From positions 21,080,001-21,144,000 of the forward strand of contig NC_135242.1 in NCBI RefSeq assembly GCF_947623445.1: 64,000 bases of DNA, written 5' to 3'. The notes beneath the pieces are model-generated. The model had not been told where the DNA came from, searched no databases, and saw only the letters and a list, made by a program, of their open reading frames with translations. This DNA comes from Clavelina lepadiformis. Its lineage: Eukaryota > Chordata > Ascidiacea > Aplousobranchia > Clavelinidae. Each line of letters opens with the position of its first letter. Within the stretch, counting starts at the first letter, position 1. Positions 967 through 25,800 of the stretch are shown one piece after another. The position numbers and the translations under genes were made by a program.

Positions 967-1829
967 TATGTTTTTTGTGTAATACTTCACACAAGTAATA
1001 CACAAACGAAAATATTATTTGTTATACTGCTACCGTACCTTTCGCTACTTAGCGGTTTTTCTATGTCACTGAGTTCAAATTGGTTAATATTTTCTTTTTG
1101 AAAATGAAAACATCATTGCATGCAATTACTGTACGTGACAAAATACCGAAACAAACTTCTTTTGTTGTTGGCATACGTTTTGCGTAGTGCACTTATTTCT
1201 GCATAACTTTCTTGAATCTGGTTTTTGTTAGCTTAATAAGAAATATAATTTTACCTGTACGTTAGTAACTTGCTTCTGCAACAGGCTTTTACCATGGAAT
1301 TTACATGCAGAATGTATGCTAAAGAAAGTTCTGTTTGATACAAATTGTCCTTGCTGATTTGTGAAATATATTTTTCAACGAAAATAAATTGCATTGCACA
1401 GTTTTTTTGTATTTTTATTTTTCGCCATTATCTGTACAAATCGAAAGTTAAGATGCTAACCGTTGTAGTTATAGCACAATAAAACACATGCTCACGAAGA
1501 ATTAACGAGCAGGAAAATGTGGAAAAGTCCAAGGGCTAGAAACATGCATTTAGCTACGATTTTAATTTTACGATTTACATGGCTGGATCGGCTTTGCGAG
1601 AACAGGTATGCTAACTTACCCATCCAGAAACTTGGAATGTATAGAGTAAGTAAAATATAGCGCCACCATAGGATTGGAATTTTAATAACCCAGCTCCTTA
1701 GATACGCGACGCGACCGCAGCAATAACAACCCAAACTGGCAGATTTGATGTGTGCTGAGTTGTTTTGATTAAGTCAGACTCACTGAGCAATGTAGGCTAA
1801 TCTGTGCTGAGTTTGTTTGATGAAAATAC

Positions 1830-1838
1830 TATATAAAA
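1830..1838 (+). promoter_or_regulatory. TATA-like element of lamin-like gene copy A
   Basis: TATATAAAA lies about 105 bases before the ATG at 1944, a plausible core promoter position. At the matching place in copy B (complement of about 24985-25005) the sequence reads TTATAATTAG, so the box is altered there. No initiator motif was verified. Confidence 0.45.
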
Positions 1839-1943
1839 AATAAGACGCAAGTCAGACTATCGATTAGCCTATTTTCAAAAAGTGTTGGTCACACTTACTT
1901 TGGTCTCGCCCACCTTGTACCCTATCACGTCTGAACGTGCATT

Positions 1944-4900
1944 ATGGCAACGAAACAAACTGACTGCATGGGCGGCGATGCAGATAACACCTTGATATCA
2001 GGGAGAATTGAAGAGAAAGCTGAGTTACAAAACCTTAACCAAAGATTTTCAAATTATATCAATGTTGTGAGACGACAGAGAGAAAAACAGGTATGCAGAT
2101 TTGCATTTGGTGCCGGAGTATTGTGACATTGTATCCGTATCACTGACAAATTTTACAATGTTAACGAAGCGAAATGAGCCACCGTTCAATGTAACCTCCT
2201 TTCAAAGGAAAATTTGCAAACTTTAACAAAAATTGATCCAAGCTATCTGCAAAGCCAAATCTTACCAGGACAAGGCTGCACTTACGCTGAATTTCTTGGC
2301 TACTTTGCAAATTTTGGTTGTATCTGCACATTTGAAAGCTCCTATTTAAGCTACATGTTTTCTTAATAAAAATCCACATTAGCTGCTCATTTTGCAAACG
2401 TAGTGTCAGAGGTGGGCAGTAGGTACTGTACTTTGAAAGTATCGTTTGTAACGGTACGTTTACTTGGCAGAAAATATATAGGCCTAAATGGTTCTGGTAA
2501 TTAGTACTATTTCAAAAAAGTAGTTCAGCACTTTGTCAGTACCGATACTTTTGAATAAAAGATGCTGCTGCAAGTGCAATATTTGCCGCTATCATGCCCC
2601 TGACAAAGGTTACTCCAGGTCAAAACATATTCGACCTTACTTTCTTGTGACTTTTCTTCACATCTGTAGACTAAAAAAACAACAAGCACTAAAACTCGTA
2701 TTAAGGTTTAATTAACATGAACCTTTGAAAACATATTTGTTGAAATTTTGAAATAATCACGTAAAAAGTACAGAGTACCGGGACCGACCAAAATTTCTTA
2801 AAAAACGTAATTCGGTACAGGGATTTGATACTTTTTAAAAAGTGCTGACAGTATCGGTACTGAAACACCATCGCAGTACAGTAATTCGGTTCTGATTATC
2901 TCTGCATAATGTAGTGTTAAGCCAATGCTTTCAATATGTTGGATTTAAAACGTTTTCTGCCATTATGGCTTTTCATGTACTTTTAAACCAATTTGCATCT
3001 GGACATGACGTGTTTGCAGTGACTGAACTTTTGTTGTATGTAACCCATTAACCAATGTTCCCATCAAATTGCATTTCAATGATTACATCAATATTTTGGC
3101 AGTTCAATAAAGTCACCAATACTGTTGATGAACAAAAATGGAGGAATGAAATTGAAAATTTACGATTGAGATATGAACAACAACTATCTGAAATGAGAAC
3201 CCAACTTGAAATTCTGCAATGTGAAAAAAATGAGCTGGAAGCAACTCGTTCAAAATATGATTCAATGTCTTCTGAGTTTGAGGGCAGGTGAGATATAATC
3301 AGGTTTTAGTTGGTAACTTAACATTGGTAGGGTTGGAATTTATATACCAATTGGTTGCGACGATCACCATAAGAGCAAGTATAAAAATTTTATTGATAAA
3401 AAGTTGACACATTTCCAACAATGTGTGTTGTTTTATTGCAACAAGAATAAATTAAAACAATTGATTTTAAGCGTTTTGCTTAAATATGCGTAATATGTTA
3501 CCATTTAACTGGAGGAAAAAGAAATTAAAAAAATAAAAATATTGTTGATGTGCAACGAGCAATCAATTGTTTTCAAAAAACGTGTTGTTCAAAACATGTT
3601 ACCTTTTTAGTTTTAAGTAAACTGTTTATACATGCTTCAGTTGCGACCTTTGCAACCACTTCGAATAATCAGACTTGTAAACATTATTGTTTTGTTTGTG
3701 TAAAATGGTTTGGTCATGAAACATTTATTCCAGTCTTTGCATTATTTAATTCAGTGATGATATCAATATATATAAAACATTTTCTACTTGCTTGTTGTCT
3801 TTCACAAATTAGAAATTGTTGCCTTATCCAAGAACATTGCAGCAACAGTGTGGCACTGGCAAGTATTGAACCTTAATCGCATTTTTGCAAGTTCAACAGC
3901 CTAACTGCTACACTACCAAGCCATATAAATGAAATATTTACTTTAATTGAATTTAATTTTGTCGTGTTCCTTCCTACTCACCTAAAAACATTGAATATTT
4001 ACAACAATTCTAAGACTTCATCAAATAACTTTGTTTTTAGGTTTCTGTCCCTAAACGAAACGGTTTTAAAGCAAACTGATCAAATCACCAAGTTGCAGGT
4101 GGCACTGACAAACAAAGAGTTAGAAGTCCAACAAGCCCAGGCTCAGCTAACCGCTCCACGTACAGAGTTAGAGTCTTGCAAGTTGGAAAGAGATGATCTA
4201 AAAAAGAGACTTGCAGAAGCTGAACGGAGGTATGTGTACTTTTTATCTAACTGTGTTGTTTAAATGATCGTTACTTGCTGTTTGTTTTGTTTTTGTTTAA
4301 CTAAAATGATAAAAATATGTTATTGCTTGTTATACATAGTTGCAATTGATATCGAAAAGCAACAAAAGTAAAATGATAATTAATGCTATGGCAACTTGCA
4401 ATTCTTCTATTGTTACACATGCCAGAGATTAAATGTTTTGTGTCAAAGGTTTCAAACAGGACAGAAGGAAATATTTGATGTCCAGCATCAATTGAATGAT
4501 TATCATACAAGATGCAGCCATGAAATGGTCATTAGTCAACAGGTAGGATTTTAAAATGGTCGTAGAGATACTATATCACCAGAACTGAACAGACTACAGG
4601 AATGGAGACATTAAATTTTTGTTGTACTTGTTAGGAAATCAGCGATCTTCATAATCGATTAGAGAACTCTCGTCAATTAATTCTTGAACTGGAGGAGACA
4701 TCTCCGAAGTCCGGCCAGCAAAACGGTCATGTTTCCGAGATGATGCGAAAAGCTCGAGAATCAAGCGAAATTGAATTGAGGAGGTATATGGAGGAAGCTG
4801 AAGCGAAGCACCAGTTGAATGTGAGTCTTGACAGAAAGATTATCAGATTTTTACCCTCTGTATTGAAGAATTTTCATCATAGTTAAAGGTTATAATTAAA

Positions 4901-7900
4901 GAAAAACATTTTTCTGATAAATTCATTATTGTGTTGGCATTTGTAAAAACAAAATTAGTTGAAACCAACACCAACTAATCATCGGAGTTGTGTTTCACTA
5001 ATTCATATTTAATACTTGTATAGATTTCTGAAATCCGGTTACAAATGGAAGCCGATGCTAACAATTTAACATCATTAATGGAGGCAAATGGAAAATTACA
5101 AGCTGACCTCAACAATGCAATGACTGAACAAAACCTGCTTCAATCTAAGGTTGGTTGGTTGATTGCCTGTAAACTGCGCATTTATGTTGTTAAAGCTTTT
5201 TATGTTTAACGTTGGTTTAAGGAAAAGTGAAATGTGTTTCAATTGTAGCTTTCATCAACTGAATCTGCATACAAAGTAACTCAGACAAGCTTAGATTCTG
5301 AAAGGAAAAGCTTTGAAAGTCAGCGACGAAAGTTGGACAGAAAACTACAAGTGAGTTGAGGACAAATTAAAACTGTTCTTCGCAAAAATTAAAAAATTGT
5401 TACAACAGAAAATCTCAGGGTTATTGCCGTTTCCACAACAAAACTGAGCATTAACATTGGCCCAAGTTTTTTCCACTGTTTTCTGATAAAGAATCAAATT
5501 AGTTTTTGTGAGTGAAAATAAAACTGAATTTATCTTTTATGACTTTGTCTCTTTGTGGCAGGAAACCCAGGATTTGCTCCTGATAAAGGTGAGGGAGCTA
5601 GACTGTGCAAGAGATGCCAATATCCCTTTGCAAACTGAGATCAACATGTTGAAAACTTTAATAGAGGAAGAAGAAAAAAGGTTTGCAACATAAACTAAAA
5701 AGTTTCAGATGTTTTTGGTTGTGGTACTGGATAGGGAATTTTTCTAACTGGCTTGAGGAGTTTGTAAATTTTAATTTTGCCTGGCAAGCTGAGGCTTGTG
5801 CAGAAAATTAAATTTGTCTGTAATTTAGTGGAGCATTAATGCCTTATCCAAACTTTTACATGCTGAGTAAAAGATAGTTGTGAGAGATAGTTAACATTTT
5901 TGCGTCTGTGGTTTTGGATTACTTCTTGGTTTGCCATTGTGATTACCTTGAAACTGGATATGCTTTGGTGTATACAAAGATTGTGTTTAGTGATAAAACA
6001 CAATTACCTACACGCCTTACCCTGCCTTTAACCACTTTCTTTAACCTTTTGTGTCCAATTAATAGGGAGTTTGACCTAGCTAATCCAAAGTATCACACAT
6101 TATACCATGTTATACCATCTTTTCGGTAAAATCATTTCTCTTTGCCAAGGTAACTGATTCATTGATTCCCTAAAACTAATGTTTACCCTTGGAAGAACAA
6201 TGTGCTATTTTAAACTCTGTTTGTTGTCTTTTCCTTCTTGAGTGTTTGCTCATTAGATGATTGACTTTGTGTTACTGATAAGGTTGGGTTTGGAAGGCAC
6301 TAACTATCTCGCTCTAAAGAACGCGGTTACTACTTGCGGAGAAACGGGAAGTTCTTTTCAGACTAAGCTCTTGAATGGCCATCTCGAGAAAACTGAAAAA
6401 GATGTAAGTGTAATCTTTTTAATTTTATTACAAAACGTAACACATATACCGAAAGAATTAATATGCACCCGATTAAAACCTTCCTCCGGCAACTGTATGG
6501 ACAAATATTGATATCGTATTACGCTCACTGACCGCAGTGTGCTGGGTTACTTGCCGTGTCGCCTGAAATTAATTTCGTCACTTGGTAGTTATAATTCAAG
6601 CTTGTTAAATTGATTTCTTAATAAAATTTGATGAATAAAGGTAACTTTTCAAACGTCGTCCGCGAGTCAACAGATGGACTTCAAGACGGGAAGTCGGTTG
6701 AACATGAGCTCCATGTATGAAAGTGCCCTACCTCGCCGCCCCTCGTCCGTGCCCATAGCAACGCGAGGTTTCACGCGGGGACCGCAAGGTACCGAGGGGG
6801 CCGAGGTCTTCAGAGCGCCTTTGGCTGGATCGAAATTTAATGATGAAGACGGGAAAGAGAGAGAAGTACGAGTAAGAATGTGTGTATTGTGTGGACTTGT
6901 TTACTGCAGAATGGCGCAGTATTTTCAATTTGCTTATTTTTTGGCGCGCTTGTGCTACAAATCGTATCCGTTGTCATTCCACTGATGCTTTGGTTTAATC
7001 ACTTGGAAACAGTTTTCCAAGGATATTTCCCGTAATGAGTCCGCTGCAAGTTCCCTCATCTATTTTGAAGAGGAACTGGATGAAGGAGGTCGCGATCTTA
7101 GCAGGAGGTCCGACGAAAGAAGCCCTGGTTTGTCAAGACTTCCTCCACGTCCCAGCAATCCCACTCCTCCAAGGATGCTACCCAGACGTCCAGCGAGTGC
7201 TGTTGGGTCGAGATATGTTCACCTAGATGCAGGTATTCTTTGTTTCAACGTCATTCAGGATCTGTCCGTAGCTGGATTAAGAAATATGGTCAAAAAACGT
7301 TTAGTATCGATCCTATTGCTAAAGCATATGGCAAACAGAATTGATTGGTTGTTTTTGGGAATGGTTCATCATATTTACTGATACCAAGTAGTACAAACTA
7401 GTGGTGTTCAATTCTAAACTAGTTCCAGATGCAATTAAATCGTGGTTCCATGGGATTTACAAACTTTTGACTGAAACATCGTTGTTTGGCTTCAGGTCAA
7501 GGAAGAGATTATTTCGACGCCATGTTCAATGACCTGCGTAAGGACACAATGTACACTAAAGTCACCGAGAACCGAGTCGGTACCGATACGGCAAGAGTGA
7601 CGTCGTCTTTGCATCAGGATCTCATAAACTCCACATCCAGGTTAGTGAAGATAATTTAAAACCGACCTGTTTTCTCTCCTTCGCTGATCAGTTTTCGTTT
7701 GGTGTTAGGGCCGCTTTTTCATTGGTTGAATGAAAACGACAAGTTTTTCCGAGTGCCTAAAAATTTTGTTTGCATTGTATATAAGCAGAAGTACAAGTTG
7801 TCGTCATGTGTGGCCCATGTGAATTAATAGAATTTTACCTAAAAACAATTCGGGAAATAATAGAGTATTTATTTAGTCCAATCATTAAGCCTACCATTAA

Positions 7901-10900
7901 GATTATCAGCTCTTTCGCTTGCTACAAAGAAGCCTTGCGCTATCAACTGGTATCATAACTCTGACTTTGGCTGATAACAGTAGTTTTATTTCAAATAATT
8001 CGCAGTCACGCCATAAGGCCAAGCAAGAACGGGCTGCTTTGGTATTCCGGATCAACCGCAAGGTTTGCTATACTGGGTGCTGTGGTTTTCCATCCTGTGA
8101 TTTATTTTCTCTTGAGATAACCTTCTCACGCTGTTTGCTTTTCAACGCTGCAATACGCTTTGAAACAACTGTTTATTGTACGAGTTACATTTTTTCAACC
8201 ATTGAAAATCGTTTATTCTGCTAGTAGAATCAATCATTTGGGATTGCTGTAGGTAGAATTTTCTTTTCTAAGTGTCTCTAGTTTTTTTAGTTTTGTCTTA
8301 GTAATCTTTTATGTACATTTTCAATACGGTTTAACCCTTACATCGTTATTACAAGAGACTAATAATTTCTGGTTGTTTCCTTCCACTTTTTTTAGGTAAT
8401 CTTGTTCAATTTTTGCATGCGTACAGTTTTGTTTGACTATACGTTTCCTTGTCAACTTCTATACTTTTTATGCAAGCTTTACCACAACTTCATCTAAATC
8501 CTGGGGTTTCGTGCTTCTGTGGTGTTTAGTTTGGTTACTGTACCCTATGCTTAAGAGTTTTATCATTATCTTGTAGTGCCACGGGAAACATGAAATTGGT
8601 TGAGATCGACGAGATCGGCAGATTTGTTCGCGTCCATAACGCTTCCCCCACTCGAACGGAAGACATTGGCGGTTGTTTGTTGCAACAGAACGTCGCTGGA
8701 CATCCGGTCGCTGTCTTCCGGTTTCCGCCAAGAACGAAACTCCAACCTGGGCACACGGCGACGGTAAGTAATTATCAACAATGGTTGATTGCGTTACTTA
8801 CTGACCAACTGACAATTTTCGGCCGTCTTTGAAAATCAAATAAAAATTTTTTCAAGGTTCTGGTTGTTGTAAAAGATGCGAGCTAAGTATATCTGAGGCT
8901 ACAGATACTGCCTAGTGCTGTACGCTACTACACCTCAACGGCAATTTCAAATACCTTAGGCGGTTGACTCTTTTCTTTTAGGTTTGGAGCGCGACTTGTA
9001 ACGAAGGTATCCACGATCCTCCTACCCATTATATATGGAAACAGCTGGACAAGTGGGGCACCGGGCCCGAATGTACAACCATTCTGTGTAAGGCTAATGG
9101 ACAAGCGGTTGCCTGGATGACCTCGGCTCCGGTATGTTGTAGCAATTAAGTAAATTGTTATATTGCGCCCGACTTGGTCTACCCTATTACGCTAAGTCAC
9201 AAAAGTTAGCGAAAGTACAAATTTTTTTTGAGTTATATAACTTAGTTTAGATTGTACTGAACGTCATAATCTATAGTATAGATTCTATACCCACGCGCAT
9301 AATCGGTTTTGTGGTAAACGTTTTCAACTGCTAGTTTAGTTGTAGTTTAATTATCTAAAATCTAATTGATTAAAACAGATTATATTATCTGTAACCAAAA
9401 AGTTTTGCTATTGAGTATGGAGGTAAATTTTGCCTTGGTGCAAATTCGAGTGAATCTTATCATATCTTAGGCTGAAAATTCTTGAAATTTAAGACCTATA
9501 AAGCTGCAGTTTATTATATTCGATACTAAACGCTTCACGCAGTCATTGGGTTATAAAAGCTAGTGCAGTGCAATGGGTCGCCGTGTTCCATTTTGGCGTG
9601 TTGTCTTCTGTAAAAATCGTCTTTCATATGCAGCGCATATCACGTGTATCACGTTCTTATGAGCAACATCAACCAGATGTGAAGAATCAAACGAGGGAAG
9701 TTGAACGGCTGGCGAATGGACTTCAAAATCGTCCCAATCATCCGGTATAGCCTGTCTTTACATGCGCGTGACTTAATATGCATCGCTAATATTATGTCGC
9801 ATATATACAGTAAACTGATTACGTTTAGGTAATACTGTAGTATATTCAATAACAGTTTACTGAATTTAAAATGTTTAATTGCTACACTTGATATTCACGT
9901 ACACATTTTTTCGCATATGACTGTTATTTTGATCAGACAAGTGACGACGCTGATTACAATGGCATTGACGCCGACTATGGAAGAGTCTCTCTGCCTTACC
10001 CTTCGTCGTATAGCGCCGGGCCAACTTTGTATTCAGAGACAGCCTACGCTCCTTCACCTAATCCGGTTATCAAAAGGTGCCTAGCTCGAACTTTATGGGG
10101 TCGTGGTTTGATACCGCTATAGATTATATATATAGTGTTTTTAAGCTGGCTTCTATGCTGCTGTGCGTTGCCATAAACCGAAAGTGTACAATAAATTCCT
10201 CAACTTACGAACATCCGATTTACGAACATTCAGTTTCGTATTTAGGCCTACTCATTACGATATTAACCGCGGGCACTGCATACAGCATTAAACGTCTAAT
10301 CATTGAGATGAAGCTCATTCATAATAATGCTTGTTGGTGCATGAAAGATATTCCCGTCCTGGCATGACCCTACTAGTGCTGGGTACAAGTAACAAAATTT
10401 TATTGTTTAAGGAATAAGTAATTTTTATCAGTAGTTCAAGCAAATCTAGTAAACGACATTCAGGCTTAAAAACATCGAAGCACATCAAAATTGTTACAAC
10501 GCACACATATTCAGTCATATCTAATGGGCGAATAGTTCTTTATTTTTGAAATAACTCACGATAACCAATCATGCTTTCACCATTGACTGCTTTCACAAAA
10601 CGTTTTGATTTTTGAAGCACTTCATATTTTTACGTCACAAATCCATTGTCTACGCTACAAGTAACGTGCATGCGAACATTATCACATGCACTTGGCTAGA
10701 ATTTTGGAACGTTGGTTGAGAGTTGTCTGTTGATTGGACTCGATTCTTTTAACTTATCCTGCAGTGCACAAATGACGGATAGTAAAAAGCGTAGGGCTAG
10801 TGATGCGACATATATAGCACTGTACACCAAGTAACAGTGCAGTACCAACTTACGAACAATTCAACATACGATTACGGACGGCCGTTCGGAACGTAATTCG

Positions 10901-11430
10901 TTCGTAAGTTGAGGAGTCATACTGACTGTCTTTTGATAAATTGTTTGTACCGTAATAATGTTTGTTTATGACGTATTAATAGGGAAAAATCGTCGAGGAT
11001 CCTTCCAACTAGAACAGGTAGCGCTCCACTTCGGAAATACGTTGCTCCGCCCTCTCAACAGCAAGTGAGTTCAGAAAAGAAATCTTCTGCTGACCCTTGC
11101 GGTCAACCTTCACCCAAAGTCGCTCCATTCTCAGCCCCCGCTTTCAGCCGGTCCTCTAAGGACCTAAAAGAGAAATTTAGCGCTGGCGTTACTTCGACGC
11201 CACATTTAAGTGCGTGGCGTGGTTCTAGCGCAACTTCACCCAAGGGCAGCGTCAAACTGTCCCTGCCCGGGACTTTTCTTTCCCCGGGGGACCAACATCG
11301 TCTGGGTATGCAACGCCTACAATCCCATCATAATCTCGAATTTCTGCCACCCATGCCCCGGGCCTTTCCCCCTGTTAACCCCATTTACACACTGAAAGGA
11401 GAAAAGAGTAACGTAGTTCTTTCTCACTAA
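1944..11430 (+). CDS. Lamin-like intermediate filament protein, copy A (17 exons)
   Basis: Exons: 1944-2090, 3103-3287, 4041-4229, 4449-4542, 4635-4820, 5024-5149, 5249-5350, 5562-5680, 6283-6403, 6674-6871, 7013-7232, 7496-7640, 8577-8763, 8982-9131, 9634-9744, 9937-10076, 10983-11430. All junctions are GT-AG with matching phases, giving about 955 residues. A short head is followed by coil 1A (LQNLNQRFSNYINVVRRQ), a rod of roughly 360 residues (lamin-type length) and the helix-termination motif near 377-393 (LQTEINMLKTLIEEEEKR). The tail is unusually long. A lamin tail (Ig-fold) domain fits exons 13-14, about residues 612-723 (e.g. GRFVRVHNAS, GTGPECTTILC). The last exon is Ser/Pro-rich. There is no CaaX box (ends VVLSH) and no obvious basic nuclear signal in the tail, so membrane anchoring like a B-type lamin is unlikely. 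It should form coiled-coil dimers and filaments; a nuclear location is inferred only. Published ascidian lamins are reported to lack much of the tail, so this may be the divergent second lamin-like class. Confidence 0.85.
2407..2904. mobile_element. hAT-type element in intron 1 of copy A
   Basis: It begins CAGAGGTGGGCAGTAGG and ends in a degenerate inverted version (the complement starts CAGAGATAATCAG). Flanks are CGTAGTGT (2399-2406) and CATAATGT (2905-2912), 6 of 8 matching; both differences are G-to-A, as expected of an old 8-bp target duplication. The same element sits in copy B at 22284-22773, so it entered before the gene was duplicated. No transposase seen. Confidence 0.6.
3795..3924 (-). 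mobile_element. tRNA-derived SINE in intron 2 of copy A
   Basis: Read on the - strand it has a tRNA-like head with an A-box-like GGTAGTGTAGCAGTTAGG and a B-box-like GGTTCAATACTTGCC about 35-40 bases later. A tail with TTCTTGGATAAGGCA resembles the conserved tails of invertebrate and fish SINEs. It is shared with copy B (21266-21400), so it predates the duplication. Exact ends were not determined. Confidence 0.55.
10190..10920. mobile_element. Terminal-inverted-repeat element in intron 16 of copy A
   Basis: CCTCAACTTACGAAC near 10198 is mirrored by GTTCGTAAGTTGAGG ending near 10914, and further ACTTACGAAC-like stretches lie just inside both ends. There is no coding capacity, so it looks like a non-autonomous DNA transposon. 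No certain target duplication was found and superfamily is unassigned. Copy B has lost this region. Confidence 0.5.
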
Positions 11431-11595
11431 GTAGATATTCATTCTTCCCGAAATAATTTGCATGTTAGTTTAGAATATACTATCAACCAAAGCAAGATAA
11501 CAGTAAAATTTTTATTTGTAAAATTTGCATGGCGAAGTTTTAGTTGTCTTTACCCATAAATAATGTACTTTCTGGCACTTTTACCTGATATGCTG

Positions 11596-11601
11596 AATAA
11601 A
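11596..11601 (+). terminator. Polyadenylation signal of copy A
   Basis: AATAAA lies about 165 bases after the stop codon at 11430, in AT-rich DNA. The region to about 11660 is still shared with copy B (complement of 17500-17743). Confidence 0.5.
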
Positions 11602-11660
11602 ACAAAAACGTGATAGCTGGTCGCAAATTTGATTTTAAATCAACTTTTTTCCATGTACGA

Positions 11661-12439
11661 ATACGATTTGTTACACAGAAAGCGTTTCTTTTAGAAAAGG
11701 CTCTACAAGGTGTAAGTTATTTTTGCTTAATGCCATACAGTACTTTTAGCTTAACCATGTTATCTTTACTGGTACGATTTATCGCATGTTGCATGTGTTG
11801 ATTTCTGCTGTAACTTGTAGGGAAGACACAATGCTCTTATACATCTATATCTTTTGTTTTGCTAACAAAAGTTTGATAACATAAGAACCGACGCAAATCA
11901 ATACCACCAAGTTGCAGTGTACTCAGTTTACACAGGAATTATTAAATGGTCAAATTAAATGAATTTGAAGTGTGAAATTTGCAAAGAATTTACATCGGTT
12001 TTCATGTTTTAACTTCTAGCTTTAGTCCGTATTTAATGCTTGGAAATTTAGCTGTAACGACATGTGTAGTCTATCACACTTCAAGTAATTCTTGTCACTT
12101 TTTCACCAACTAACTACCTGTCATCTTACTAACACCTCTTCAATCCACCCTACTTCTGCCCCAATTTTCACCCATACTACAACCCAAATGTAGACCCCAA
12201 TTTACCAGCAGAAGTTGGCGACCAATGGCAACGCGGACTTGATTGAACTGACCACTCAGAAATCTGTTCGTTCAAAATATGGATTCGATTTTATGACGCA
12301 CCCTCCGAAGGTAGTCAATTATGACGGCACAGTACGCGAGCGCTAGATCTGGACCCACGTGCCTGCTTCGGCTTAAGTAACATGGAATATTTGACTGAAT
12401 TATGCCAAAATTTTAACTGAACACTGTACCGTTTCGTAT
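11661..12439. other. Copy A 3' flank, partly absent from copy B
   Basis: There is no gene. Arm homology breaks off near 11680 and resumes near 12325-12360 (ACGCGAGCGCTAGATCTGG against the complement of about 17475). About 0.65 kb is therefore unique to this arm, either inserted here or deleted in copy B. No inverted terminal repeats were recognised, so the mechanism is unknown. Confidence 0.5.
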
Positions 12440-14540: not shown

Positions 14541-14708
14541 GTTAGCGCACAAGCAGATGCGTCCGCTGAAAAAGAGTTTACACAAAATAATGTCATAATG
14601 AAAACAGCACGAGAGCGATGCAGAGAACTCGATATTACTCGACAGGAAATCGAATACAAGTTACTGAGAGTTCTCGTGATATTGCTGGGAAGTGTTGGCA
14701 AAAACAGA
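14541..14708 (+). other. Possible orphan coiled-coil exon
   Basis: After a good acceptor (TTTCATTATCTAG) comes an open frame rich in charged residues (KTARERCRELDITRQEIEYK), helical in character, running to a possible donor at AGAA/GTATGT near 14708. The window's first bases match its end (base 1 = 14667), so a second copy probably lies just upstream of the window. It resembles no exon of the lamin-like gene. It could be an exon of another gene or a relic captured in the duplication. Confidence 0.3.
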
Positions 14709-14926
14709 AGTATGTGCCTCTTTACGTCATAATGGATTAAGTACTTTCCTTTTGTCTAGGTATAGGTCAGGGGTGTCCAAAACTGTCCAACCTTTTTGGC
14801 CAAAGGGCCACATGCGATTTACGAATGATTGCGCGGGCCACTTGAGTGTTTACTGCTAATTTCTAATTAAAACCCTCACCCCAAAATTCTAATCTGAGAA
14901 ATACGTATTATCCTCTTTTACAATTA

Positions 14927-16153
14927 CAGTCGAATCCCCTTAATTCGGACACCGGATAACCTGGACAACCGCTTTATTCGGCCAAAATGCTCGGGAACGG
15001 AACAAAAGTAAAAATTGAACGTAAAAATCTCCCGTTAATTCGGACAATTCTCCGCTTAATTCGGACACAGGTTCGCAATTCTTATCGTTAGGTTATGACT
15101 AGGGCAACCAAAAGTCAATATAGTCATTTTTTTTTAACCTGCTCAGAATGCTATCAAACAAGCACAAAACAAATTTCAGCTTTGTACGACGTGTGGTATA
15201 GAAGTTATTAGGTCAAATAAAGTCAAAATGTTACGTTAGGTCAAAATACGGTCAAATTGTTTCTTTAGGTCTTCTTTTTAGGTCAAAATCTATTAAACTT
15301 GTAATTTTGTAACCATTTTGTAATATTATTCTTCCGTTTTTCTCTTTTCTTGTACCGCAAACAATTCCAGTGCCCCAAATTATACTTAGAAGTTAGAACC
15401 AAAGCCACAAAGAGAGGGAAGGCCTTTCAGCGCGTCTGGTGACGTCACGATGTGAAGGCATTGCATTTGAAACTGCAAGTTGCCAATTTTAATACGCAGA
15501 AACGAAAAAAAGTCAACACTAGAAAAGCGTTTTGTCAATTTTAATTGCAGCTTTAGATTAGAAAGTTGCTGTAGACAGTGTAGAGACTATCAGTATAGCG
15601 TTTTTCAAAATAAGGTCAAAATTTAAACTTTTTAGGTCAAAATAAGGTTAAAATTTAAACTTTTTAGGTCAAAATTTGCAAATTTTAAGGTCAAAATTTA
15701 AACTTTTTAGGTCAAAAAACTGGTTGCCCTAGTTATGACAAAACAAACAGTACTTCGTTCGTTTTTACACAAGATGCAATTGCATTATGAGTGATTATGG
15801 TGAAACAATGACGATCGATGCAGTAACAATCGACAATGAACTCATATAAGGCCGTGCCAGCTTCACAGTCGCTTTTACTTCGGTACAATTGCGTCCATCT
15901 TGTAGAACAGATTGGTACAGAAAAGTTTAGCAGAGAAAGTGAAATTGCTCACTAAAGTAAACGAAATGTTTTATGCGATCAGTGCCAGTTACTGCAGTAT
16001 AGCGCAGCTGCAATTCATTTATTACGCAACTATACAGTATTTTAAATGCGTTGTCTGCCATTACACATGACCATGAAACGAACAACTGATTCTCCGCTTA
16101 ATTCGGCCAAAAGTGAGCGGAACCAAAGTGTCCGAATTAAGTGGAGTCGACTG
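14927..16153. mobile_element. Tigger/pogo-like element inside the hAT element
   Basis: Both ends are inverted repeats of the form CAGTCGA..CC.CTTAATTCGGACAC, typical of the Tigger branch of pogo-like (Tc1/mariner) transposons, flanked by TA dinucleotides (14925-14926 and 16154-16155). Inside the ends ATTCGG-type motifs recur. No transposase frame survives. It is itself interrupted by 15100-15731. Confidence 0.85.
15100..15731. mobile_element. Innermost hAT element
   Basis: Ends TAGGGCAACCA and TGGTTGCCCTA, flanked by a perfect 8-bp duplication GTTATGAC (15092-15099 and 15732-15739). The interior repeats the phrase TTTAGGTCAAAA many times, mostly near the right end. There is no coding capacity. 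It is the youngest of the three nested elements. Confidence 0.9.
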
Positions 16154-19100
16154 TATAAGAACAACAAACATACGAAGATATAGTAAATTCAACGTCTCAA
16201 CATTTCAATGTGAAGTTTGGCACTGTTTTTCTCTAACAAGTTTGGCAATATTCGGTGAGATGGACGATGTAGCAATGCGAAGCGAGTTTTCCATATGGCT
16301 GTCAGAAATTAGTAAACTAACAATAAATGCCAATTTCTCGGAATGTAAGTTCGCCATAAATTACGTAGGCGATTCAGTTGATCAGTCATTTCGACAAATA
16401 CCGCGCGGGCTACTCAGAACCTTCCCGCGGGCCACAGGCTGGACAGTGGACACCCCTGGTATAGGTCTTATGGATAGAGTTCAAGTGCTTTCTCTCTTTT
16501 TGAAACCTTCACATTGCAAATGGACGAAGCGGCCTCACCATGCACAGGCGAAAAAGCGATTACTGGTGTCCAAGCCAGCAAACAAGAAACCAACCCACAA
16601 TTTAAATCTGGCAGATCCCACTTAAGCATACGATCGACAAACTTATGAATAACCACGCATCTGAGCTTGCAAATGCTGTTTGCTTTTGCTGCGGCTGGCT
16701 GTAGCTATATACACAACACGTTTGTGTCAAACTGGATTGCAGTAAAGGAAATAAATATTGGTCGGACCTCGATAAGTCTGATGTTAACTAGGTGCCATAA
16801 GCCCATAACACTTATTGTTTATTATTATATATTATTGCTTAAATTGCTTAATTATCGCTGACGAAACTACCGGATATACCAACAGCGCGAATGCTTTATT
16901 TCATATCATTATTTATACGCTACAAGTAACACTATGGTAAGTCACTATAGTTCTGAAAACCTTGATATATATAACTACGAAGCTACATAAGATGTCACAA
17001 ACATATATCCCGTTAATAGAGCTTATTTACTTTGTCTCCACAAACTTTTCCCATCCTCGAATACAGCCTCACAAAGATCAATCAAAATTAATAAAACAAG
17101 CCAATTACATAAACGTGACAACAAAGCTACAATAACAATGAACTAAAACACAGTACAGCATAAGAATTAGCTTTTTAAAGTATTAAAATGCATTCATAGT
17201 CGTGGTATAACGTTCACAGAACACTAAGCTTAGATGAGTCGGGCAGAAGTAAATTATTAGGAAAATACAACGCGCTATATGAACACTTTATGTAAATTAG
17301 GCCAAAAAGCCGCAGCTAGATAAAGATCGCTCAGGAATTGAGGCCGCACACTACGGTATCATAATTTTTATCATACGACACGGTACAGGTAGAGTGTTAA
17401 GTTAAAATTTTGGCATAATTCAGTCAAATGTTAATTAGGCCAAAGCCATCGTTGACGACGGCACGTGGGTTCACATCTAGTGCTCGCGTTCTGTGCAACT
17501 AATCGTATTCGTACACGGGAAAAAGTTGATTTAAAATCAAATTTGCGACCGGCTATTACGTTTTTGTTTTATTCAGCATATCAGGTAAAAGTGCCAGAAA
17601 GTACATTAAATATTTATGGGTAAAGACAACTAAAATTTTGCCATGCAAATTTTACAAATAAAAAGTTTACTGTTATCTTGCTCTGGTTGATAGTATATTC
17701 TAAACTAACATGCAAATTATTTCGGGAAGAATGAATATCTACTTAGTGAGAAAGAATTACGTTGCTCTTCTCTCCTTTCAGTGTGCAAGTGGGGTTAACA
17801 GGGGGAAAGGCCCGGGGCATGGGTGGCAGAAATTCGAGATTATGATGGGATTGTAGGCGTTGCATACCCAGACGATGTTGGTCCCCCGGGGAAAGAAAGT
17901 TCCCGGACAGGGACGGTTTGACGCAAGTTGCGCTGGAACCACGCCACGCATTTAAATGTGGCGTCGAAATAACGCCAGCGCTAAATTTCTCTTTTAGGTC
18001 CTTAGAGGACCGGCTGAAAGCGGGGGCTGTGGATTGTGCGACTTTGGGTGAAGGTTGACTTGGAAGAGTGGGATTGCTGGGAAGTGGAGGAAGTCTTGAC
18101 AAACCAAGGCTCCTTTCGTCGGACTTCTTGCTAAGATCGCGACCTCCTTCAATGAGTTCCTATTCAAAGTAAATGAGGGAACTTGCAGCGGACTCATTAC
18201 GGGAAATGTCCTTGGCTAAAATTTTCCAAGTGATTAAACTAAGAGATCAATGGAATGATAACGGATACGATTTGTAGCACAAGCGCGCCAAAAAATAAGC
18301 AAATTGAAAATACTGCGCCATTCTGCAGTAAACAAGTCCACACACTACACACGTTATTACTCGTACTTCTCTCTCTTTCCTGTCTTCATCATTAACCTTG
18401 GTACCTTGCGGTCCCGGCCTGAAGCCTCGTGTTGCTGTGGGCACGGTCGAGATGCGGCGAGGCAGGGCACTTTGATATATGGAGCTCATGTTCAACCGAC
18501 TTCCCGTCTTGAAGTCCATCTGTTGACTCGCGGACGACGTTTGAAAAGTTACCTTTATTCATCAAATTTTATTAAGAAATCAATTTAACAAGCTTGAATT
18601 ATAACTACCAAGTGACGAAATTAATTTCAGGCGACACGGCAAGTAACCCAGCACACTGCGGTCAGTGAGCATAATACGTTATCAATATTTGTCCATACAG
18701 TTGCCGGAGGAAGGTTTTAATCGGGTGTATATTAATTCTTTAGGTATATGTGTTAGGTTTTGTAATAAAATTAACAAGATTACACTTACATCTTTTTCAG
18801 TTTTCTCGAGGTGGCCATTCAAGAGCTTAGTCTGAAAAGAACTTCCCATTTCTCCGCGGGTAGTAAACGCGTTCTTTAGAGCGAGATAGTTAGTGCCTTC
18901 CAAACCCAACCTTATCAGTAACACAAGGTCAATCATCTATTGAGCAAACACTCAAGAAGGAAAAGACAACAAACAGAGTTTAAAATAGCACATTGTTCTT
19001 CCAAGGGTAAACATTAGTTTTAGGGAATCGATGAATCAGTCACCTTGGCAAAATAAAATGATAACAAACCAACAAACAAAGGTTGGTATAACAATACAAT

Positions 19101-21265
19101 ATTTTGGAGTAGCTAGGTCATACTCCCTATTAATTGGACACAAAAGGTTAAAGAAAGTGGTTAAAGGCAGGGTAAGGCGTGTATGTAATTGTGTTTTATC
19201 ACTAAACACAATCTTTGTATACACCAAAGCATATCCAGTTTCAGGGTTATCACAATGGCAAACCATGAAGTAATCCAAAACCACAGACCTAAAAATGTTA
19301 ACTATCTCTCACAACTATCTTTTACTCAGCATGTAAAAGTTTGGATAAGGCATCAAGGCTCCACTAAATTACAGAAAAAATTAATTTTCTGCACAAGCCT
19401 CAGCTTGCCAGGCAAAATTAAAATTTACAAACTCCTCAAGCCAGTTAGAAAAATTCCCTATCCAGTACCACAACCAAAAACATCTGAAACTTTTTACTTT
19501 ATGTTGCAAACCTTTTTTCTTCTTCCTCTATTAAAGTCTTCAACATGTTGATCTCAGTTTGCAAAGGGATATTGGCATCTCTTGCACAATCTAGCTCCCT
19601 CACCTTTATCAGGAGCAAATCCTGGGTTTCCTGCCACAAAGAGACAAAGTCATAAAAGATAAATTCAGTTTTATTTTCACTCACAAAAACTAATTTGATT
19701 CTTTTTCAGAAAACAGTGGAAAAAATTTGGGCCAATGTTAATGCTAAGTTTTGTTGTGGAAACGGCAATAACCCTGAGATTTTCTGTGGTAACAATTTTT
19801 AAATTTTTGCGAAGAACAGTTTTAATTTGTCCTCAACGTACTTGCAGTTTTCTGTTCAACTTTCGAAGCTGACTTTCAAAGCTTTTCCTTTCAGAATCTA
19901 AGCTTGTCTGAGTTACTTTGTATGCAGATTCAGTTGATGAAAGCTACAATTGAAACACATTTCACTTTTCCTTAAACCAACGTTAAACATAAAAAGCTTT
20001 AACCACATAAATGCGCAGTTTACAGACAATTTACCAACCAACCTTAGATTGAAGCAGGTTTTGTTCAGTCATTGCATAGTTGAGGTCAGCTTGTAATTTT
20101 CCATTTGCCTCCATTAATGATGTTAAATTGTTAGCATCGGCTTCCATTTGTAACCGGATTTCAGAAATCTATACAAGTATTAAATATGAATTAGTGAAAC
20201 ACAACTCCGATGATTAGTTGGTGTTGGTTTCAACTAATTTTGTTTTTACAAATGCCAACACAATAATGAATTTATCAGAAAAAATATTTGTCTTTATTTA
20301 TAACCGTTCAATATGATGAAAACTCTTTAATACAGAGGGTAAAAATCTGATAATCTTTCTGTCAAGACTCACATTCAACTGGTGTTTTGCTTCAGCTTCC
20401 TCCATGTACCTCCTCAATTCAATTTCGCTTGCTTTTCGAGCTTCACGCATCATCTCGGAAACATGACCGTTTTGCTGGCCGGACTTCTGAGCAGTCTCCT
20501 CCAGTTCAAGAATTAATTGACGAGAGTTCTCTAATCGATCATGAAGTTCACTGATTTCCTAACAATTACAACAAATTCATGTCATCATTCCTGTAGTCTG
20601 TTCAATTCTGGTAAAATAGTATCTCTACGACCATTTTAAAATCCTACCTGTTGACTAATGAGCATTTCATGGCTGTATCTTGTATGATAATCATTCAATT
20701 GATGCTGGACATCAAATTTTTCCTTCTGTCCTGTTTGAAACCTTTGACACAAAACATTTAAGCTCTGGCATGTGTAACAATAGAAGAATTGCAAGTTGCC
20801 ATAGCATTAATTATCATTTTACTTTTGTTGCTTTTCGATATCAGTTGCAACTATGTATAACAAGCAATAACATATTTTTATCATTTCTGTTAAACAAAAA
20901 CAAAACAAACAGCAAGTAACAATCATATAAACAACACAGCTAGATAAAAAGTACACATACCTCCGTTCAGCTTCTGCAAGCCTCTTTTTTAGGTCATCTC
21001 TTTCCAACTTGTAAAACTCTAACTCTGTACGTGGAGCGGTTAGCTGAGCCTGGGCTTGTTGGACTTCTAACTCTTTGTTTGTCAGTGCCACCTGCAACTT
21101 GGTGATTTGATCAGTTTGCTTTAAAACCGTTTCGTTTAGGGACAGAAACCTAAAAACAAAGTTATTTGATGAAGTCTTAGAATTGTTGTAAATATTCAAT
21201 GTTTTTAGGTGAACAGGAAGGAACACGACAAAATGAAATTCAATTAAAGTAAATATTTCATTTAT

Positions 21266-21400
21266 ATGGCTTGGTAGTGTAGCAGTTAGGCTGTTGAACT
21301 TGCAAAAATGCGATTAAGGTTCAATACTTGCCAGTGCCACACTGTTGCTGCAATGTTCTTGGATAAGGCAACAATTTCTAATTTGTGCAAGACCACAAGC
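21266..21400 (+). mobile_element. tRNA-derived SINE in intron 2 of copy B
   Basis: Same element as 3795-3924, opposite orientation relative to the window. The A-box-like TAGTGTAGCAGTTAGG and B-box-like GGTTCAATACTTGCC are intact in both copies. Confidence 0.55.
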
Positions 21401-22283
21401 AAGTAGAAAATGTTTTATATATATAGATATCATCGCTGAATTAAATAATGCAAAGACTGGAATAAATGTTTCATGACCAAACCATTTTACACAAACAAAA
21501 CAATAATGTTTACAAGTCTGATTATTCCAAGTGGTTGCAAAGGTTGCAACTGAAGCATGTATAAACAGTTTACTTAAAACTAAAAAGCTATGTTTTGGAC
21601 AACATGTGTTTCGAAAACAATTGATTGCTCGTTGCACATCAACAATATGATATTTTTATTTTATTTTTTCCTTTGGTTAAATGGTAACACATTGTACATA
21701 TCTAGGCAAAACAATAAAAATCAATTGCTTCAATTTATTCTTGTTGTAATAAAGCAACACACATTGTTGGAAATGTGTCATTTTTCAAAAATAAAATTTT
21801 TATACTTGTTTTTATGGTGATCGTCGCAACCAATTGGTATATAAATTCCAACCCTACCAATGTTAAGTTAACAACTAAAACCTGATTATATCTCACCTGC
21901 CCTCAAACTCAGAAGACATTGAATCATATTTTGAACGAGTTGCTTCCAGTTCATTTTTTTCACATTGCAGAATTTCAAGTTGGGTTCTCAATTCAGACAG
22001 TTGTTGTTCATATCTCAATCGTAAATTTTCAATTTCGTTCCTCCATTTTTGTTCATAAACAGTATTGGTGACTTTATTGAACTGCCAAAACATTGATGTA
22101 TCATAATCATTGCAATGCAAATTGATGAGAAAATTGGTTAATGGATTACATACAACAATAGTTCAGTCACTGCAAACACGTCATGTCCAGATGCAAATTG
22201 GTTTAAAAGTACATGAAAAGCCGTAACAGCAGAAACGTTTTAAATCCAACATATTGAAAGCATTGGCTTAACACTACATTATG

Positions 22284-22773
22284 CAGAGATAATCAGAACC
22301 GAATTACTGTACTGCGATGGTGTTTCAGTACCGATACTGTCAGCACTTTTTAAAAAGTATCAAATCCCTGTGCCGAATTATGTTTTTTAAGAAATTTTAG
22401 TCGGTCCCGGTACTCTGTACTTTTAACGTGATTATTTCAAATTTTGACAAGTATGTTTTCAAAGGTTCATGTTAATTAAACCTTAAAACGAGTTTTAGTG
22501 CTTGTTGTTCTTTTTTAGTCTACAGATGTGAAGAAAAGTCACAAGAAAGTAAGGTCGAATATGTTTTGACCTGGAGTAACCTTTGTCAGGGGCATAGTAG
22601 CGACAAATCACTTACAGCAGCATCTTTTATACAAAAATTATTGGTATTGACAAAGTGCTGAACTACTTTTTTGAAATAGTACCGATAACCGGAACCATTG
22701 ATACATTTTCTGCCAAGTAATGGGACCATTACCAACGATACTTTCAAAGTACAGTACCTACTGCCCACCTCTG
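22284..22773. mobile_element. hAT-type element in intron 1 of copy B
   Basis: Orthologue of 2407-2904, ending CTGCCCACCTCTG at 22773. Flanks ACATTATG and ACACTACG are the same degenerate 8-bp target duplication as in copy A, which confirms insertion before the duplication. Confidence 0.6.
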
Positions 22774-23236
22774 ACACTACGTTTGCAAAATGAGCAGCTA
22801 ATGTGGATTTTTATTAAGAAAACATGTAAATAGGAGCTTTCAAATGTGCAGATACAACCAAATTTTGCAAATTAGTTAAGAAATTATCCAGAATAAGTGC
22901 AGCCTTGTCCTGGTAAGTTTCGACTGTGCGGATAGCCTAGAGTAATTTTGGTTAAAGTTTGCGAATTTTGCCCCAAATGGATTTAAACTTGAACGGTGGC
23001 TCATTTCGCTTCGCTGACATTGTAAAATTTGTTAGTGATACGGATACAATGTCACAAAACTCCGGCACCAAATGCAAATCTGCAAACCTTTTTTTCTCTC
23101 TGTCGTCTCATAGCATTGATATAAATTGAAAATCTTTGGTTAAGGTTTTGTAACTCAGCTTTCTCTTCAATTCTCCCTGATATCAAGGTGCTATCTCCAT
23201 GGCAGCCCATGCAGTTAGTTTTTTTCGTTGCCATAA

Positions 23237-24887
23237 CACTGGACAACAGCAAAATTATTCCTCAAATAAAAATAAACTGCCTAGACTAACTTTGGGACGC
23301 TGATTCCAAATCTGAAATCAGAATTGGTCTATCACGTCAGGTTTTCAAGATATGAAAATTCACGAAATTCGGATTTTGCATTGATTGGCACTATATTATG
23401 AGGTTCTACAGTACAAGGTATTGTGCAATTTTCTTTCCCAGCGAATTGTTGGTCATATTATGTCACAATGCATGTTATGTAAGATTAATATTGACATTAT
23501 TTTGTAAATGCAATGTTCTATCTTTTCACAATTAATGCATTCTTGAATGTTCTTGGCCATGACTATAGAGGGGGGGGGGGGGTAAAATCGAAGACTCTGT
23601 GTGTTTTTGCACTGATGTTGATTCACTCATGTATGAGCTTGGCCACCAACACATTAGCACTGAGTGGAGACTGTTCATTGATTCTAGCAAAGCTAGTTTG
23701 AAAGCTGTCCTACTGCACAATGGGAATGAAAAGCCTTCTGTCCCTATTGCTCATGCTGTCGATTTGAAGGAGACGTACGAGTCTATGGAAACCATCCTAC
23801 GGGTCATTAACTACCGGGCTTATAACTGGAACATATGTGGAGACCTTAAAGTTGTGTCACTTTTGCTCGGATTGCAGTTGGGTTACACCAAGCATATGTG
23901 CTTTCTCTGTTTGTGGGACAGTCGAGACGATGCAAACCACTATGACACAACTGAATGGCCAATGAGAACGGACTACATTGTTGGAAGATATAATGTTAAG
24001 TGCCAACCCCTAATTGATCCGAGCAAAGTGTACTTGCCACCACTTCACATTAAACTGGGCCTGATCAAACAATTTGTGAAGGCAATGGATTTCAATGGAG
24101 ATGGATTCCTGCATATAAAAGAAAAATTTGGTGCAATACTAAGTGATGCTAAACTGAGAGCTGGAATATTTGTTGGCCCCCAAATACGTGATTTGATCCG
24201 TGACCCAGTATTTCCATTCAAGCTTAATTCAATTGAATTAAAAGCCTGGAATGCATTTGTACAGATTGTACAAAATGTTTCTTGGGAAGTACAGGGCAGA
24301 AAATTACTCGGAACTAGTGGACAATTTGCTGGAATCATACCGCGAAATGGGCTGCAGAATGTCGGTTAAACTGCATTTTCTTCATTCACACTTGGAATTT
24401 TTCCCGCCAAACCTGGGTGATGTGAGCGACGAGCATGGGGAAAGATTTCACCAAGACATCTCTGTGATAGAATCGCGGTATAGAGGTCGATTTAACCCAA
24501 ACATGATGGGGGACTACTGCTGGTTTCTTCAGCGTGAAACTGACACTGAACATACTCGAAAGAGCAAGTGTATAAAGCACTTTTGAGGGAATATAATGTT
24601 ATTTTTGTCTGATTTAATTATCCTGGGTTGTGTTAAATTGTGCAGTATGATAATGCTGTTATTTTCAATAGAAACTACTGGGTTGATTACATGTAATGTT
24701 TTGTTCCGCTCAGCCAAAATTAGCCAAAATCACAGTTATGGGTTGTCGTGAGCATATATCATATCTCAAAAACGTGACGTGTTAGAAAAAATCTAAGACC
24801 AGATTTGGATTCAGCATTGCAAAATTAGTCTAGGTAAACTTGAAATGAGCGAGGAATAAAAAATAAGTTGTAAATTGTTGTCCAGTG
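23237..24887 (+). mobile_element. DNA transposon with CACTG ends inserted before the ATG of copy B
   Basis: Inverted ends CACTGGACAAC (23237-23247) and GTTGTCCAGTG (24877-24887), with a second shared block TTATTCCTC about 15-30 bases in. Flanks are TAA (23234-23236 and 24888-24890). Copy A at 1941-1946 shows the empty site with a single TTA. CACTR ends with a 3-bp duplication fit the CMC/EnSpm (CACTA) group; assignment beyond that is inference. It carries a decayed open frame (23599-24586) and a run of about 13 Gs near 23570. Confidence 0.85.
23599..24586 (+). pseudogene. Transposon-encoded protein, frame-shifted remnant
   Basis: Two overlapping frames (23599-24369 and 24251-24586) are needed to follow one protein, so a frameshift lies near 24275-24290. 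Landmarks are YLPPLHIKLGLIKQFVKAMD, a Cys pair in HMCFLCLW, and VSDEHGERFHQDI near the end. I recognise this as a protein repeated in many invertebrate genomes as uncharacterised copies; it sits squarely within the terminal repeats here, so I take it as the element's own product. N-terminus missing. Catalytic residues not identified. Confidence 0.65.
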
Positions 24888-24890
24888 TAA

Positions 24891-25800
24891 TGCACGTTCA
24901 GATGTGATAGGGTACAAGGTGGCTAAGACCAAAGTAACCCTAACCGACACTTTTTGAAAATAAGCTAATCGATAGTCCGATTTATGTACTAATTATAAGT
25001 ATTTTCATCAAACAAACTCGGCACAGATTAGCCTACATTGCTCACTGAGTTAGTCTGACTTAACCAAAACAACTCAGCACACATCAAGTCTGCCAGTTTG
25101 GGTTGATATTGCTGCGGTCGCGTCGGGTATCTAAGGAGCTGGGTTATTAAATTTCAATCCTATGGGAGCGCTATATTTTTCTTACTCCAAGGCGTTTCTG
25201 GATGGGTAAGTTAGCATACCTGTTCTCGCAAAGTCGATCCACCCGTAAAATTAACAATGAAGCTAATTGCATGTTTCTAGCCCTTGAACTTTGCCACTTT
25301 TTCCTGCTCGTTAGTTATTCGTGAGCATGTGTTTTATTGTGCTATAACTACAACGGTTAGCATCTTAACTTTCGCTCCGTACAGATAATGGCGAAAAATA
25401 AAAATACAAGAAAACTGTGCAATGCAATTTATTTTCATAGAAATATATATTTCCCAAATCAGCAAGGACAATTTGTGTCAAACAGAACTTTCTTTAGCAT
25501 ACATTCTGCATGTAAATTCCATGGTAAAAGCCTGTTGCAGAAGCAAGTTACTAACGTACAGATAAATTATATATTTTATTAAGGTAACAAAATCCAGATG
25601 CAAGAAAGTTATGCAGAAATAAGTGCACTACGCACGACGTATGCCAACAATAAAAAGACGTTTGTTTCGGTATTTTATCACGTACAGTAATTGCATGTAA
25701 TGATATTTTAATTTCTAAAAAGAAAATATTAACCAATTTGAACTCAGTGGCATAGAAAAACCGCTAAGTAACGAAAGGTACCTTAACAGATAACACGATT
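24891..25800 (-). other. Displaced 5' flank of copy B
   Basis: Reverse complement of 1015-1943, the promoter region of copy A. It is now 1.65 kb further from its ATG because of the insertion at 23237-24887. The TATA-like box of copy A is changed here. No separate gene seen. Confidence 0.6.

Follow-up and report, generated by a model that had tools for sequence, protein, structure and literature searches.

The window analysed here, a 64,000-nucleotide stretch of chromosome 3 of the sea squirt Clavelina lepadiformis (C3:21,080,001-21,144,000; coordinates below 1 lie to its left), carries two inverted copies of a lamin-related gene. The locus probably arose by a rearrangement of the duplication-inverted triplication-duplication (DUP-TRP/INV-DUP) type, with the right gene at the original site and the left gene as its inverted daughter. 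Comparison of the window with itself confirmed that the inverted repeat is real: inverted matches paired 1020-1944 with 25795-24888, 1942-7173 with 23236-18059, 11102-11684 with 18059-17485 and 12327-13314 with 17496-16458 (E printed as 0 for each). The identities of the arm blocks, all given as ungapped, were 91.5% (903 bases), 94.6% (5165 bases) and 95.3% (571 bases). An inverted duplication with a lamin-like gene in each arm, as proposed by the initial annotation, was thus borne out by this self-comparison; both arms hold the same gene, and both copies are transcribed towards the centre. The proposed dimensions had to be revised. The gene arms lie 5.8 kb apart (11684 to 17485) and not across a spacer of ~1.2-3 kb, and the duplicated pieces reach beyond the limits of 1015..25800 set for the palindrome, up to 3.6 kb left of the window. 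Between the arms lie a left-specific stretch of 642 bp, several flank-segment copies (X1-P1 and P2-X2 among them are mutually inverted) and a 1.7 kb hAT-like insertion (Table 1).

Read from left to right, the locus consists of the left flank F up to 974, junction 1, arm G forward, X1, P1 inverted, a 45-bp scrap and R' inverted, followed by junction 2, Q''-P2 direct, X2, arm G' in reverse and a hydroxylase gene. Comparison of F with the rest gave five matches, four large ones and one of 35 bp. Q'' and P2 together form a direct copy of -490..974 that is split by the hAT-like insert, and the middle copy is inverted, as DUP-TRP/INV-DUP requires. Two copies were found of -3644..-2860, of -490..38 and of X and G, three of ~93-974 and one of -2859..-491; because the last of these is single, the left duplication and part of the triplication are incomplete relative to the expected 1-2-3-2-1 pattern. 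Microhomology or a scrap marks both junctions that define the layout (TAAG at junction 2, a short dispersed repeat at junction 1). A single junction 1 predicts that P should stop at 974 and G start at 1020 around one repeat, and the two homologies were indeed found to end on either side of one short repeat at these positions. Furthermore, the P-X join occurs in both arms and therefore predates the duplication, the F-G join occurs only at junction 1, and 47 bp separate the hydroxylase stop codon from the outer end of the right arm; by parsimony, the right copy is thus probably the parent.

The segments, their order and their orientation were read directly from the alignments, and from them we infer one event and a replicative mechanism. 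The ancestral order would have been F (... -3644 ... -490 ... 974), X, G in reverse and the hydroxylase gene. Copying would have followed F as far as 974, switched to the distal (5') end of G, continued backwards through G, X and F to -3644, and then jumped to -490 to proceed forwards again through X and G, and these two new junctions would yield the layout with an inverted middle copy. The third joint, inside the inverted copy, where flank -2859..38 is missing and the 45-bp scrap stands, may reflect an extra template switch or a later deletion. The locus matched by this scrap, L015, also carries the junction 1 repeat. The daughter would then have stayed intact; in the parental copy, 3.9 kb with the lamin tail would have been deleted, a stop would have arisen in exon 10 and, very recently, a transposon would have inserted at the start codon.

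Several points weigh against this reconstruction. The parental side is assigned by parsimony, the third joint is an extra step, and the right frame is too clean for a long-dead gene, with no frameshift in 1,900 shared coding bases. Moreover, a single event predicts equal ages, yet the block divergences differ: between the same two copies, R differed by 3.2% and P by 7.8% (p = 4e-5). The noncoding divergence between the arms (G) was 6.2% (299 of 4789), that of P/P2 10.0% and that of Q 5.2%. The gap between R and P could stem from conversion among the copies or from later repair, and conversion, later repair or constraint must in any case be added to a single-event origin. Because the copy ages are unequal, an inequality that later conversion could cause, we describe the locus as having the layout of DUP-TRP/INV-DUP and not as a proven single event. 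The unequal divergence, together with the dispersed-repeat scraps at two of the three joints, would fit separate events, in which the small segment P was first duplicated in inverted orientation next to the gene, the whole block was later duplicated as a palindrome, and the original gene is the left one. This order of events seems unlikely to us, since it needs at least one more new junction and leaves unexplained why the P and G breakpoints coincide around the same 45 bp.

The DUP-TRP/INV-DUP origin is also in line with known cases. Human rearrangements of this type at the PLP1 and MECP2 loci, as described in the sections cited here, likewise have direct copies on either side of an inverted one, two junctions that define the layout, short microhomology and repeats or inserted scraps at junctions (PMC4352052, PMC10766186). 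The junction homologies in one of these sections are mostly 0-4 bp, with one of 47 bp (PMC10766186), and some cases in the other show further template switches or have a deletion in one of the copies (PMC4352052). Unlike the human cases, the Clavelina locus is old (~6% noncoding divergence), belongs to a tunicate and is small, involving roughly 16 kb of ancestral sequence (summed); its left duplicated segment is incomplete, and the structure as a whole is eroded by deletions and transposons. Inverted triplication at yeast SUL1 by origin-dependent inverted-repeat amplification (ODIRA) likewise places an inverted copy in the middle, and its palindromic junctions may erode later, according to the part cited (PMC10766186). 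The Clavelina locus keeps no short-spacer palindromic junction, and ODIRA and microhomology-mediated break-induced replication (MMBIR) are therefore indistinguishable here. Taken together, the mechanism is ordinary and not new, the cargo is uncommon, and the locus retains the near-complete anatomy of an inverted-triplication type rearrangement in a chordate genome.

A palindrome of this kind could also be produced by an assembly that joined two haplotypes of one locus head to head, which is what the initial annotation had feared. The arms are ~6% diverged at noncoding sites, a value that is not impossible for alleles of a marine invertebrate. However, -20000..25795 had no match to 25796-64000 at E 1e-3 and homology ends at both outer ends, the 84 kb examined contain zero Ns, third copies are present in mixed orientation, and the arms carry private deletions and insertions. 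The assembly was built from 117-fold HiFi reads and purged of haplotypic duplications, as stated in the part of its description cited here (PMC10884593). A haplotype artefact is thus unlikely, and with unique flanks, zero Ns and third copies all opposing it we regard it as very improbable.

The initial annotation had further suggested gene conversion between the arms and a cruciform-driven loss of exons, and we checked arm identity along the alignment. The outer part (to 3600) was more diverged than the inner part (8.2% vs 4.6%, p = 3e-7), and 20 of the 25 noncoding indels fell in the outer part (p = 0.0009), both with a cut chosen after seeing the data. Introns differed in divergence from 2.5 to 9.3% (heterogeneity p = 0.009), and the longest run free of mismatches, at 152, exceeded the mean maximum of 96 obtained from shuffled data (p = 0.007). 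Raw mismatches were clustered (variance/mean 3.9-5.1); we rejected this clustering as a sign of conversion tracts, because thinning close mismatches removed most of it and it consisted mainly of multi-base clusters. After thinning, no clear patches were detected in bins of 100, 200 or 400 (p = 0.086, 0.06 and 0.298, respectively). The uneven divergence and the long run fit conversion and the thinned events are about even, so that gene conversion between the arms is possible but unproven. The combined version, in which conversion homogenised the arms and a cruciform caused the exon loss, accommodates the less diverged inner part, the mostly outer indels, the uneven introns and the long run, but not the even spread of thinned events or a deletion with a 1-bp joint far from the turning point; we consider it rather doubtful.

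The left gene model was assembled manually, using open frames, GT-AG splice sites and intron phases, and its product is accordingly a prediction from sequence only. In the joined protein, Pfam LTD (lamin tail domain) matched residues 591-701 (E 8.3e-12, 45.9 bits, above the 34.3-bit cut-off), and Pfam Filament matched residues 23-334 (E 7.1e-6, 26.3 bits, below the 40-bit cut-off). The two LTD exon frames scanned singly matched no Pfam family, and the LTD was found only in the joined protein; the exon 1 frame alone gave a sub-threshold Filament match (18 bits, E 0.0025). Among solved structures, the tail matched lamin A/C (E 3.3e-17), and the rod matched vimentin (4.6e-5) and lamin A (5.9e-4) weakly. 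The C-terminus (...NVVLSH) is not a CaaX box. The left gene is therefore predicted to encode a diverged filament rod and a lamin tail without CaaX, lamin-related but not lamin itself. The label lamin-like thus holds for the tail domain, and the rod match stays under the threshold (26.3 bits against a cut-off of 40); in the strict sense the label does not hold, since CaaX is absent and lamin proper lies on C9. Compared with lamins that have an LTD, the left gene shares a rod-like region and the tail domain and differs in a rod below the Pfam cut-off, a long tail and the lack of CaaX. The vertebrate LMNTD1/LMNTD2 (IFLTD1) proteins are similarly LTD-bearing, lamin-related and without CaaX, and a GQGRDYFD-like stretch ahead of the LTD also occurs in LMNTD1; the left gene is probably of LMNTD type. 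Among the papers listed in searches on lamin tails, LMNTD genes and tunicates, none had a title or abstract opening concerned with an LTD gene of this kind in tunicates. Lmntd1 was reported, in the part cited, to lack orthologs in chicken and zebrafish (PMC6609395).

The right gene carries later damage of its own, as the initial annotation had proposed for the arms: a tail deletion, an exon 10 stop and a transposon at the ATG. The annotation had placed the loss at exons 12-16; it runs instead from within exon 10, whose 3' part is gone, through exons 11-15 and into exon 16, which lacks its 5' part. This loss is one 3,928-bp deletion whose joint shares a single base, and it removes the lamin tail; since a single such event suffices, a cruciform is unnecessary. 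The deletion joins exons 10 and 16 in a common frame, downstream of the exon 10 TAG. Elsewhere in the genome (209,060,895 bases in 95 contigs), 7174-11101 had only dispersed-repeat matches, at ~10172-10945 (37 of 37 candidates scored). In addition, right exon 9 has a 39-bp in-frame deletion, and its donor reads GTAATA in place of the left GTAAGA. The target duplication of the transposon provides the A of the right-gene ATG, and its family is young, with at least 23 full-length matches at 99-100% identity including the window copy (40 of 318 candidates scored). The right arm was the shorter one in 20 of 29 indel cases (p = 0.06; including the 3,928- and 642-bp gaps, the transposon left out), and the 642-bp segment was perhaps deleted from it. 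A processed pseudogene was rejected, because right introns 1-9 are retained and the decay is that of a duplicated, unprocessed copy.

To compare the two copies, we used Nei-Gojobori estimates for exons 1-9, which gave a synonymous divergence (Ks) of 0.066, a nonsynonymous divergence (Ka) of 0.037 and a ratio of 0.55 between the arms. Measured against the intron rate, nonsynonymous change was reduced (p = 0.003) and synonymous change was the same (p = 0.69). Given the observed transition share, 39 nonsynonymous changes stood against 40 expected under neutrality, and changes totalled 57 against 80 expected, so that constraint is visible mainly as fewer changes. Exons 1-9 would be free of stops under neutrality with P = 0.07. 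The two coding indels (39 and 12 bp) are both multiples of three, whereas 19 of 25 noncoding indels are not. In one neutral lineage, 3.8 frameshifts would be expected per 1,900 coding bases and none was seen (P0 = 0.023); for exons 1-9 alone, 2.7 were expected and none seen (P0 = 0.065). Because frameshifts are absent where this many are predicted, the right copy probably decayed late.

The right gene has probably become a pseudogene recently, or else encodes a truncated protein that has only the rod and is no longer than 476 aa. That it is alive and makes such a shortened protein would agree with open exons 1-9, nine donors and nine acceptors kept, coding indels that preserve the frame, nonsynonymous change under the intron rate and a premature stop that sits in the last exon. 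The transposon right at the ATG, the exon 10 stop, the altered exon 9 donor, a nonsynonymous share as under neutrality and the P of 0.07 for the absence of stops all speak against it, and a pairwise comparison cannot tell which copy was constrained; we therefore hold a living right gene to be fairly unlikely. Still more speculative is that the parental copy is being remade as a tail-less filament gene, its tail lost in one deletion and its rod frame under selection, replaying the tail loss of tunicate lamins while the daughter keeps the only LTD detected in the genome. A decaying copy at the probable original site with an intact inverted daughter would represent a route by which a gene changes its orientation and neighbours.

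A genome search with Filament (E up to 1) gave six other loci over the cut-off, three weak C2 matches under it and nothing at the window locus, and the rod of the window gene is thus highly diverged. One of the six, C9:12138000-12147900 (L061), encodes a rod of lamin type, with lamin A/C as its best structure match (3.4e-30); a basic stretch and a CAVM end were recognised there by eye. When these filament loci were searched in six frames with two LTD queries, the best E was 2.3 and no listed match fell in the C9 locus; by comparison, the lamin LTD query matched window exons 12 and 13 at 2.6e-7 and 2.2e-6. At E up to 10, the lamin A/C LTD used as a genome query hit only window exons 12 and 13 (two of two matches), and so did the window's own LTD at E up to 1, although an LTD too diverged or too split by introns could escape both queries. 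The Pfam LTD model gave zero genome matches but missed the window locus too, and was not used. Because these searches hit only the window exons, the Clavelina lamin proper on C9 has no detectable LTD. Riemer and colleagues reportedly described tunicate lamins without the tail domain in 2000. The C9 lamin without an LTD match resembles such tail-less lamins, and the right-arm copy also lost its LTD, but that loss is a separate deletion in another gene. In the parts cited, the Ciona lamin is likewise reported without a lamin tail (PMC4680568, PMC8259725). With a lamin tail present in one gene and none detectable in the lamin proper, this tunicate allows the fates of the two domains to be studied separately.

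Table 1. Features of the Clavelina lepadiformis window (positions in the window).
Feature	Position	Strand	Basis or remark
Segment P, original flank copy	39..974	+	self-comparison
Junction 1: P end (974), short dispersed palindromic repeat, left arm start (1020)	966..1019	.	
Left arm G, inverted daughter copy (probable), intact gene	1020..11684	+	self-comparison; 10.7 kb
Left gene, 16 exons, 936 aa, no stop (predicted)	1944..11430	+	hand-built model, GT-AG at all 15 introns
Left exons 1-8	1944-2090, 3103-3287, 4041-4229, 4428-4542, 4635-4820, 5024-5149, 5562-5680, 6283-6403	+	
Left exons 9-16	6641-6871, 7022-7232, 7496-7640, 8577-8763, 8982-9131, 9634-9744, 9937-10076, 10983-11430	+	
Exons 1-8, intermediate-filament-like rod region	1944..6403	+	Pfam Filament, under cut-off
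Segment missing from right arm, from within exon 10 to the beginning of exon 16	7174..11101	+	arm alignment
Exons 12-13, lamin tail domain	8577..9131	+	Pfam LTD
Left-only segment, 642 bp, no other genome match	11685..12326	+	bordered by near-repeats CACAGAAAGCG/CACAGTACGCG
X1	12327-12442		X1-P1 inverted relative to P2-X2
P1, inverted copy of P (39-974)	12443..13373	-	
Third joint, 45 bp between P1 and R'	13374..13418	.	31 bp matches L015
R', inverted copy of flank -3644..-2860 (L010 6356-7140)	13419..14198	-	96.8% ungapped
Junction 2, turning point of symmetry	14193..14198	.	4-bp shared TAAG
Q'', direct copy of flank -490..102	14193..14768	+	
hAT-like insertion in spacer, another repeat nested inside	14766..16457	.	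CAGGGGTGTCC ends, 8-bp target duplication GTATAGGT
P2, direct copy of P (93-974)	16458..17369	+	
X2	17370..17496	.	joins P2 to right gene
Right arm G', copy at probable original site	17485..25795	-	self-comparison; 8.3 kb
Right terminal exon, exon 10 fused to exon 16	17743..18210	-	TAG after 16 codons
Right gene exons 1-9, 460 open codons	18361..23234	-	GT donors of exons 1-9 and AG acceptors of exons 2-10 retained
Young transposon at right-gene ATG	23237..24887	.	terminal repeats CACTGGACAACA, 3-bp target duplication
Right flank gene last exon, aspartyl/asparaginyl beta-hydroxylase-like	25842..26093	-	E 6.2e-14, over cut-off

Repeats and flanking frames were also examined. Insertions shared by both arms had been described as a hAT element in intron 1 and a short interspersed element (SINE) in intron 2. 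A dispersed repeat of ~490 bp is indeed common to intron 1 of both arms (2407-2893), and it is old, since its relatives are 74-78% identical (40 of 1538 candidates scored). No hAT was found in intron 1, and no SINE in intron 2, whose matches were limited to the two arms plus an 80-bp stretch elsewhere (three of three candidates scored). The element that we take to be hAT-like, from its ends and its 8-bp target duplication, lies in the spacer instead; the ~650-bp repeat nested in it (15095-15740) is 92-97% identical to many genomic copies. Segment P was rejected as a transposon, because, its last ~46 bp aside, its matches were confined to the locus, where they comprised P itself, P1, P2 and a piece of 64 bp (40 of 244 candidates scored). 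No tRNA genes were found in the window. None of four open reading frames in the left flank matched Pfam at E 0.01; a 510-codon open frame (L010 7742-9274, minus strand), transporter-like by eye and located in the flank part missing from the inverted copy, had no Pfam match at that threshold. On the right, frame 26293-26976 gave a weak hydroxylase match (E 0.075, under the cut-off). Three of four examined copies of the CACTGG-ended DNA transposon family found at the right-gene ATG have a 3-bp TTA/TAA target duplication, and the copy at L050 seemingly has ATAG instead. Finally, the palindromic repeat of junction 1 occurs at many genome sites, including seven in C9:2574789-2630731 that are mostly ~8.5 kb apart, as if a larger unit were repeated there in tandem.

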